A stretch of 18,713 nucleotides of DNA from Candidatus Eiseniibacteriota bacterium (lineage in GTDB: Bacteria; Arandabacterota; Arandabacteria; JAGLYR01). Below the pieces are notes generated by a model that did not search any database, was not told the origin of the DNA, and was given only the letters and a program-made list of their open reading frames with translations. Both the position numbers and the translations under genes were made by a program. The DNA lies in assembly GCA_023132135.1 (NCBI GenBank), contig JAGLYR010000183.1:1-18713 (forward strand), in the 5' to 3' direction. This document shows positions 1,913-5,206 of the stretch, piece by piece (the first letter of the stretch is position 1; each line of letters begins with the position of its first letter).

Positions 1913-1940
1913 TTGACAAATGGGGTGGCGTTCTTGTAGT
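1913..1940 (+). promoter_or_regulatory. Promoter of the histone gene
   Basis: TTGACA (1913-1918), 16 bp, TGTAGT (1935-1940). The -35 is perfect and the -10 has four of six consensus bases. Predicted start near 1947 gives a leader of about 60 bases before the ATG at 2006. The same TTGTTGACAA context surrounds the -35 of the glycosyltransferase promoter. Confidence 0.6.
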
Positions 1941-2005
1941 GGTCATAGTGCCAGTGTGTCGCAGGAATTCTATACGGATGGGGAATCTAGCACAAGGAGG
2001 ATGGA

Positions 2006-2176
2006 ATGGCTGATCTGATCATCTCCAAGACCAAGACTAAGGAAGCGGTCAGGAAGTGCAACGTCGCCGGTGAGTTCTACGGCGCGCTGGACAAGAGAGT
2101 GAAGGAAATTATCGCGGCGGCGGAGAAGAGGGCCATGGCCAATGGCCGGAAGACGGTGAAGGCCCAGGACCTGTAG
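2006..2176 (+). CDS. Bacterial single-domain histone-fold protein (Bd0055-like)
   Basis: Small DNA-binding chromatin protein, 56 residues. The sequence fits one helix-strap-helix histone fold: helix 1 about 9-17 (rich in Lys), a loop NVAGEF at 19-24, a long central helix about 23-45 (FYGALDKRVKEIIAAAEKR), then the loop and start of helix 3, NGRKTVKAQDL (46-56). The RKTVKA(Q/E)D ending is the loop-2/helix-3 signature of archaeal histones such as HMfB (RKTIKAED), but this protein stops right after it, as in the short bacterial histones typified by Bdellovibrio Bd0055. Eleven Lys/Arg give a basic protein. AAGGAGG (1994-2000) sits five bases before the ATG, close to an ideal ribosome site; the ATG at 2001 reads into a stop after five codons. 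It has its own promoter and a perfect terminator and stands alone. DNA binding, abundance and oligomer form are inferred from the family. Confidence 0.85.
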   Translation: MADLIISKTKTKEAVRKCNVAGEFYGALDKRVKEIIAAAEKRAMANGRKTVKAQDL

Positions 2177-3549: not shown

Positions 3550-3637
3550 GATGCCTCCCGCTTTTGTGGTCAGAGAAACTGCGGAGAGTACTCTACCACA
3601 ATGCGAACGAAAGCATCTACAGATTCCGCATCCGGCC

Positions 3638-3667
3638 TTGACATCCCCCTCCCGCCGACTCTATCAT
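3638..3667 (+). promoter_or_regulatory. Promoter of the arginine decarboxylase-agmatinase operon
   Basis: TTGACA (3638-3643), an 18-bp spacer and TATCAT (3662-3667). The expected start near 3674 leaves about 29 bases before the GTG at 3703, with AAGGAGGG at 3689-3695. Confidence 0.7.
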
Positions 3668-3702
3668 TCCTGACCCGCGTTTTTCGCCAAGGAGGGAAAT
3701 CA

Positions 3703-4293
3703 GTGTCGGCTGTTGCAAAGGGCAGTGGAGCCGGGAACGTCGGGACGTATGTCCCGTCACAGGCGTTTCTGACTCGAGGTGCAGGCAAACACAAGGAGAA
3801 GCTGGCCAGTTTCGAGGTTGCTCTGCGCAATGCGGGCATCGCCAGCGTGAACCTGGTCCGGGTGTCCAGCATTTTCCCTCCCCACTGCAAGCTGATCTCA
3901 AGAGAGAGAGGCCTTGCCCAGCTCAAGCCCGGCCAGATCGTACACGCGGTGATCAGCGAGAACGCCGCCAACGAACCCCACCGGCTCATGGCCGCGGCCA
4001 TCGGGGTCGCGATCCCCCGTGATCGTTCCAGGTACGGATATCTCTCAGAACACCACAGTTTTGGAGAAGCAGACGATAGAGCGGGGGAGTACGCGGAGGA
4101 TCTGGCCGCCCATATGCTGGCCACGATCCTGGGGATCACGAAGTTCGATCTCGACAAGAGCTATGTTGAGGAGAAGGACATCTGGCGTCTATCGGGCCAG
4201 ATTGTGAAAACCCGGAACGCGGTGCAGTCGGCCGTGTCGGACAAGAATGGGCTCTGGACAACAGTGCTGGCCGCAGTAATCCTTCTCCCATAG
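3703..4293 (+). CDS. pdaD: Pyruvoyl-dependent arginine decarboxylase
   Basis: Converts arginine to agmatine and CO2 with a self-made pyruvoyl group. The 196-residue proenzyme carries NLVRVSSIFPPHCK (50-63); family members cleave between the two serines (here Ser55-Ser56) to leave a pyruvoyl group on the second chain. YLSEHHSFGE (113-122) supplies the conserved Glu and the strand near the active site. Although the frame is open from 3601, GTG 3703 is preceded at the right distance by AAGGAGGG and fits the family's usual length; the upstream part carries the promoter. It is followed 28 bases later by agmatinase, making a two-step route to putrescine. This enzyme class was first described in archaea and is also found in several bacterial groups. 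Confidence 0.92.
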   Translation: MSAVAKGSGAGNVGTYVPSQAFLTRGAGKHKEKLASFEVALRNAGIASVNLVRVSSIFPPHCKLISRERGLAQLKPGQIVHAVISENAANEPHRLMAAAIGVAIPRDRSRYGYLSEHHSFGEADDRAGEYAEDLAAHMLATILGITKFDLDKSYVEEKDIWRLSGQIVKTRNAVQSAVSDKNGLWTTVLAAVILLP

Positions 4294-4311
4294 CCGGCAT
4301 TTCTCACCAGG
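4292..4311 (+). repeat. Copy 1 of a 20-base post-stop intergenic repeat
   Basis: AGCCGGCATTTCTCACCAGG begins inside the TAG stop of the decarboxylase gene. A second copy at 16443-16462 differs at one base. Here its last bases form part of the agmatinase ribosome site. Confidence 0.7.
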
Positions 4312-4321
4312 AGGTTCGAGA

Positions 4322-5206
4322 TTGAGCCCCCCCCTTTTTTCACCACCCTATGGATTCCTGGGACTGGAGCCCGAGCGGTCTCGGCTTGAGACTTCCCGTT
4401 TCGTTGTACTCCCGGTTCCCTATGAACAGACGACGACCTTTGGGGGAGGAACCCGGTCCGGCCCCGAGGCTATCCTGCGGGCTTCCCGGGAGGTGGAACT
4501 CTGGGACGATGAACTGGGGGCTGAGCCGGCGGAGATGGGCATCCATACCCGGCCGGCCCTGGAGCCCAGCGCCTCCGGCCCGGTCGAGATGGTGGACCGG
4601 ATCCGGCGAGCGGTCTGCGACCTGGACCACAATGGCAGAATCCCCGTTCTCCTGGGGGGGGAGCACACCGTTTCCGTCGGGGCCGTCCAGGCTATCGTCG
4701 ATAGGCGACCGGATCTGGTGGCTGTGGTTCTCGACGCCCACGCGGATCTCCGGAATGAGTACCAGGGTTCCCCTTTGAGCCACGCGTGCGCAGCCCGGCG
4801 GATTTCTGAGCAGTGCCCCATTGTTCAGATCGGAATCCGGAGCATGTCGAAGGAGGAATCGGGATTCGCGGGGGACGAAAGCGGGGGTTTCTTCTCGATG
4901 GGGAGAATCCGGTCGGATTCTGATTGGATGGGGGAGATGATTTCCCGGGTCAGCGGCAAACGCGTCTACCTCTCCATTGACCTCGATGTATTGGATCCCG
5001 GGATCATGCCTTCGGTGGGAACTCCCGAGCCCGGTGGACTCGGGTGGTACGAGATCACATTGATCACAGCCGAGATTGCGAAGAGCGCGGAGGTTGTGGC
5101 CTTTGACGTGGTTGAGCTGGCCCCGATTCCGGGACTCATCGCTCCGGATTTCCTCGCCGCCAGGCTCGTGTACAAAGTGATGGGCCAGATCGCAGGCGAG
5201 TTGTAG
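4322..5206 (+). CDS. speB: Agmatinase (ureohydrolase family)
   Basis: Hydrolyses agmatine to putrescine and urea using two manganese ions. The 294 residues contain all ligand motifs: GGEHTVS with His115, DAHADLR with Asp138, His140 and Asp142, and SIDLDVLDP with Asp220 and Asp222. The PSVGTPEPGG stretch (230-239) is typical of agmatinase and arginase. The start is TTG, seven bases after CCAGGAGG (4307-4314), with no in-frame ATG or GTG near the expected N terminus. Agmatinase rather than arginase or formimidoylglutamase is favoured because an arginine decarboxylase lies directly upstream. The ribosome site overlaps the end of a 20-base sequence that recurs 12 kb downstream. Confidence 0.9.
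   Translation: MSPPLFSPPYGFLGLEPERSRLETSRFVVLPVPYEQTTTFGGGTRSGPEAILRASREVELWDDELGAEPAEMGIHTRPALEPSASGPVEMVDRIRRAVCDLDHNGRIPVLLGGEHTVSVGAVQAIVDRRPDLVAVVLDAHADLRNEYQGSPLSHACAARRISEQCPIVQIGIRSMSKEESGFAGDESGGFFSMGRIRSDSDWMGEMISRVSGKRVYLSIDLDVLDPGIMPSVGTPEPGGLGWYEITLITAEIAKSAEVVAFDVVELAPIPGLIAPDFLAARLVYKVMGQIAGEL

Follow-up and report, generated by a model that had tools for sequence, protein, structure and literature searches.

The window analyzed here, i.e. the whole stretch of DNA of 18,713 nucleotides, contains on its forward strand a 56-codon open reading frame (ATG at 2006, TAG at 2176), whose product, MADLIISKTKTKEAVRKCNVAGEFYGALDKRVKEIIAAAEKRAMANGRKTVKAQDL, ends in NGRKTVKAQDL and has a pI of 9.8 and a net charge of +5.5. 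Homologues with 55-76% identity are present in several bacterial phyla and in many other uncultured bacteria, and they share the position of the C-terminal residue with the window protein. Codon differences between the window gene and its relative at locus L030 are concentrated at third positions (10, 10 and 25 at codon positions 1, 2 and 3, respectively). A chance open reading frame is ruled out by this conservation, and the gene at 2006-2176 is a genuine histone gene, the only one of this kind in its own genome. The original prediction, made from the sequence alone, had described a free-standing histone with a single fold that is easily missed, and both points are borne out by a chain of 56 amino acids that adopts a histone fold in the AlphaFold2 model and scores below the Pfam cut-offs.

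Strong expression signals had also been proposed for this gene. The Shine-Dalgarno sequence AAGGAGG (1994-2000, forward strand) is indeed strong and lies 5 nt upstream of the ATG, and homologues without an N-terminal tail have a GGGAGG-type ribosome-binding site at the matching position. With regard to the promoter, a perfect but putative -35 hexamer, TTGACA, is present at 1913-1918 on the same strand, where it was not scored as a promoter; a good -10 element is absent, the best candidate being a weak TGTAGT (1935-1940, forward strand, 4/6 matches, 16 nt spacing), and a sigma70 promoter scan scored no promoter for the histone gene. Because TTGACA occurs eight times in the two strands of the window, the -35 hexamer alone is weak evidence. 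Downstream, a perfect 19-bp inverted repeat with a 3-nt loop was found at 2194-2234 (arms 2194-2212 and 2216-2234), and the surrounding 74-nt region folds at -46.7 kcal/mol (z -6.2). The repeat had been regarded as a perfect terminator belonging to the histone gene; its perfection holds, but since no T-run follows the stem and the repeat is located between convergent genes (the partner encodes an M29-type peptidase), it is not clearly the histone's own and is probably the transcription end for both flanking genes.

The window protein lies below the cut-offs of Pfam DUF1931 (PF09123; 17.5 bits, cut-off 21.8), Pfam CBFD_NFYB_HMF (14.9 bits, cut-off 21.4) and the NCBIfam archaeal histone model. 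DUF1931 matches with E-values up to 0.1 were obtained for 37 of 52 diverse members of the subfamily, the best being 9.5e-5. Searches against solved structures were more informative as to subtype. In a single-sequence phmmer search, the first match was HTkC, an archaeal "face-to-face" (FtF) histone from Thermococcus kodakarensis (PDB 9F2C), with an E-value of 9.6e-7, and HBb (Bd0055) of Bdellovibrio bacteriovorus followed at about 0.006. A profile of 20 sequences (A1) gave 3.4e-13 for HTkC, 5.7e-6 for HLp, an FtF histone from Leptospira perolatii (PDB 9QT0-9QT2), and about 7e-4 for HBb, so that this search, which the original prediction had proposed as a check, placed the FtF histones ahead of the Bdellovibrio protein.

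Structure prediction of the monomer, proposed at the same time, yielded a histone fold with a mean pLDDT of 86 (AlphaFold2, 52-row alignment), in which alpha1 spans residues 8-14, alpha2, which is shortened, residues 22-45, and alpha3, which is limited to one turn, residues 53-55. Foldseek ranked HTkC first (TM 0.89, rmsd 1.0), closely followed by HLp (0.89, rmsd 1.0) and HBb (0.86, rmsd 1.7-1.9), and VIA-align left all three tied at Z 7.6-8.2, with other histones at 5.6 or less. In view of this tie, the predicted fold shows an alpha3 histone only, and it is the sequence that reveals the subtype. Two other histone types differ from the window protein: archaeal nucleosomal histones have an alpha3 of about 10 residues, whereas the window chain stops after an alpha3 of three residues, and DUF1931 pseudodimers contain two folds per chain and score above the cut-off that this protein of 56 residues falls short of.

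FtF histones have been defined by a ring tetramer, a conserved Arg and Asn where the two dimers meet and an RxTxxxxD motif (PMC11390915). The interface residues (R48/N52 of the published HMM) correspond to R42 and N46 of the window protein, the motif corresponds to R48, T50 and D55, and none of these five residues varies among the 77 homologues. The alpha1 lysines are also kept (K8 and K12 in 74 of 77 homologues, K or R at position 10 in 73), and a shortened alpha2 with a one-turn alpha3 was seen in the model and in its HTkC and HLp matches. In HLp, R49, N53 and R55 contribute to the tetramer, an R55-D62 pair clamps loop 2, and K15, K17, K21, T27, G29, T56 and T57 touch DNA (PMC12701072). The equivalents in the window protein are R42, N46 and R48 for the tetramer, D55 for the clamp, and K10, K12, R16, V20, G22, K49 and T50 for DNA contact, with substitutions at two mapped positions (HLp T27 to V20 and HLp S52 to A45); the mapping in alpha1 depends on placing the 2-residue gap against HLp between alpha1 and loop 1, a placement that agrees with both the MAFFT alignment and the VIA-align ranges. 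In addition, homologue chains stop exactly at D-L or D-I, which fits the contact that an Arg makes with the carboxylate at the chain end in FtF histones (PMC11390915).

Each of the three solved relatives resembles the window protein in a different way. Of the solved structures, HTkC comes closest in sequence (about 40% identity) and has the same fold, the dimer-dimer interface Arg, the RKT loop and no tail, but it is archaeal and less basic, has a Glu at the position of N46 and is 4 residues longer in helix1-loop1. HLp is bacterial and shares the fold, the Arg/Asn/Arg triad, the R-D clamp and most DNA-contact positions; however, it is only 27-28% identical, possesses an N-terminal tail and has 2 more residues in helix1-loop1, which makes this region 2-4 residues shorter in the window histone than in the two FtF proteins. 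HBb has in common the histone fold, short alpha2 and alpha3 helices and an RKTxxxxD loop. The shared fold and short helices, together with the fold tie and the phmmer match, could suit a dimer that bends or coats DNA and forms no tetramer, in line with the Bd0055 comparison of the original prediction. However, HBb (27-30% identity, weaker profile score) is found only as a dimer, and bacterial dimer histones lack the Arg and Asn of the FtF interface (PMC11390915), both of which are present here without exception among the homologues; moreover, the FtF histones lead the profile search with E-values several orders of magnitude lower. On these residues and this ranking, a dimer of the Bdellovibrio type is unlikely, and the proposed likeness to Bd0055 needs correcting. 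The window protein would instead be an FtF-type alpha3 histone of the four-subunit, DNA-wrapping type.

The best-supported mechanism, which we consider quite probable, proceeds from homodimer to ring tetramer to DNA wrapping. Two chains would pair head to tail via helix 2, and two dimers may then meet face to face at both ends to form a ring-shaped homotetramer, as suggested by HTkC and HLp, with dimer-dimer contacts made by R42, N46 and R48, probably together with the carboxylate that ends the chain at L56. A basic rim formed by K10, K12, R16, loop 1 at G22, and K49 and T50 in loop 2 is predicted to hold the DNA backbone regardless of sequence, and by analogy with HLp the tetramer might wrap about 50-60 bp of DNA.

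At the level of gene content, the histone would act beside HU/IHF and not in their place. The genome carries four HU/IHF-family genes, which rules out that the histone replaces HU and is different from the situation in the HLp host, which lacks HU (PMC12701072). The presence or absence of HU in relatives had been suggested for examination, and HU/IHF was detected in all 38 Krumholzibacteriota-side genomes around G032, a genome taken to belong with the Krumholzibacteriota loci (2-5 matches each). The histone therefore comes on top of HU/IHF, and its proposed role as a main chromatin protein is unsupported. The constant company of HU/IHF, the weak promoter and the failure of the neighbourhood comparison to reveal any conserved operon partner of the window copy would also be compatible with a minor protein whose histone fold has been recruited for a job other than packing, such as a protein-protein adaptor or a single-site regulator. 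Nevertheless, the protein is strongly basic and has conserved DNA-contact lysines along with a conserved K49 and T50, and the literature describes binding to genomic DNA for its relatives HLp and HBb; such a non-packing role therefore appears improbable.

The closest relatives of the window histone form a subfamily marked by IISKxxTK, with 55-76% identity, the same invariant residues and members in Krumholzibacteriota, Methylomirabilota, Myxococcota, Planctomycetota and other phyla. We fetched 80 named loci, most of them from Krumholzibacteriota and others from Methylomirabilota, Myxococcota, Planctomycetota, Gemmatimonadota, 'Latescibacterota', Eiseniibacteriota and further groups; these phylum names are the submitters' MAG titles, some of which are doubtful. 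In a tree based on 56 columns, the window protein falls into a tailless, mostly Krumholzibacteriota clade (93/85, not starred). A homologue is encoded by 27 of the 38 G032-related genomes and by 19 of the 23 genomes of its family (three of the four genomes without a match are 75-87% complete); the same histone was found in G032 contig C142 and in record CAIOLW010000142 (L035). Many Krumholzibacteriota copies share a neighbourhood with genes for an M20 peptidase and a ComM-like Mg-chelatase, from which that of the window copy differs. This histone subfamily is missing from seven genomes of the class to which the window belongs. Two of these classmates, G002 (L109:1495-1677, reverse strand) and G007 (L130), have a different, HBb-type histone with KADGRKT and without the FtF Arg and Asn, so that two kinds of histone occur within one bacterial class.

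Such a distribution raises the question of whether the contig came from another organism in the MAG, as the nearest histones are those of Krumholzibacteriota (75%) and the seven classmates have none of this type. However, the phosphofructokinase encoded by this contig shares 63-65% identity with those of six classmates and no more than 57% with those of Krumholzibacteriota-side genomes, the agmatinase is nearest to that of a classmate (50% vs 46%), and both GC content and the tetranucleotide profile agree with other contigs of the bin. A binning artefact is therefore very improbable, and judging from phosphofructokinase identity and composition the contig belongs to this genome. A viral origin was rejected, as a single-protein query revealed no relative of the histone in viral contigs and its only match in PHROGs was at 0.09. 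The near-universal presence of the histone in one Krumholzibacteriota family and its absence from seven classmates suggest loss or transfer.

FtF histones, including bacterial ones, are already known, and HLp has been described as the first bacterial FtF histone to be characterised experimentally (PMC12701072). According to the published papers, the main bacterial holders are Spirochaetota, Planctomycetota, Bdellovibrionota and Myxococcota (PMC11390915, PMC12701072), and names beginning with Krumholz-, Latescib- or Methylomirabil- are absent from the main text of either survey. A literature search for histones and Krumholzibacteria found none, although an earlier listing of these sequences in the supplementary tables of the surveys is possible. 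What is new is thus modest and lies at the subfamily level: a shortened alpha1/loop 1, a tailless branch and persistence beside HU. The subfamily reaches phyla unnamed in those main texts, and the window protein scores under the Pfam cut-offs that one survey used. With an FtF-type histone in 19 of the 23 genomes of a family that bears HU/IHF, the role of a wrapping histone beside HU becomes testable. It is possible, if rather doubtful, that the IISKxxTK subfamily forms an FtF class of its own, tailless and shortened in alpha1/loop 1 in Krumholzibacteriota and their kin, which would be a major, vertically kept chromatin protein working with HU/IHF, and that, within its class, only the lineage of the window gained or retained the gene.

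Several additional observations were made in the course of these comparisons. Many subfamily members outside the tailless branch (L056, L058-L060, L074-L104) carry lysine-rich N-terminal tails of varied sequence before the same core, and the MAG KW1-S15_115 has two slightly different histone copies on separate contigs (L060, L071). In L084, L088 and L091-L104, mostly from Planctomycetota, the histone gene adjoins one for a conserved protein of about 1200 amino acids, for which no Pfam match was found in the one member scanned; a phosphoglucomutase-type gene is located nearby, and a DAC-domain gene (cyclic di-AMP synthase type) is present in eight loci. The PF00808 matches in the classmate G001 (L008 and L009, contig G001:C69) read as adjoining eukaryotic H2B-like and H2A-like genes, and they were set aside as probable eukaryotic contamination of that MAG. 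In the window itself, a gene read as encoding a pyruvoyl-dependent arginine decarboxylase-like protein is followed by an agmatinase-like gene (3601-5206, forward strand); together they probably form a polyamine pathway, which lies about 1.5 kb away from the histone gene.
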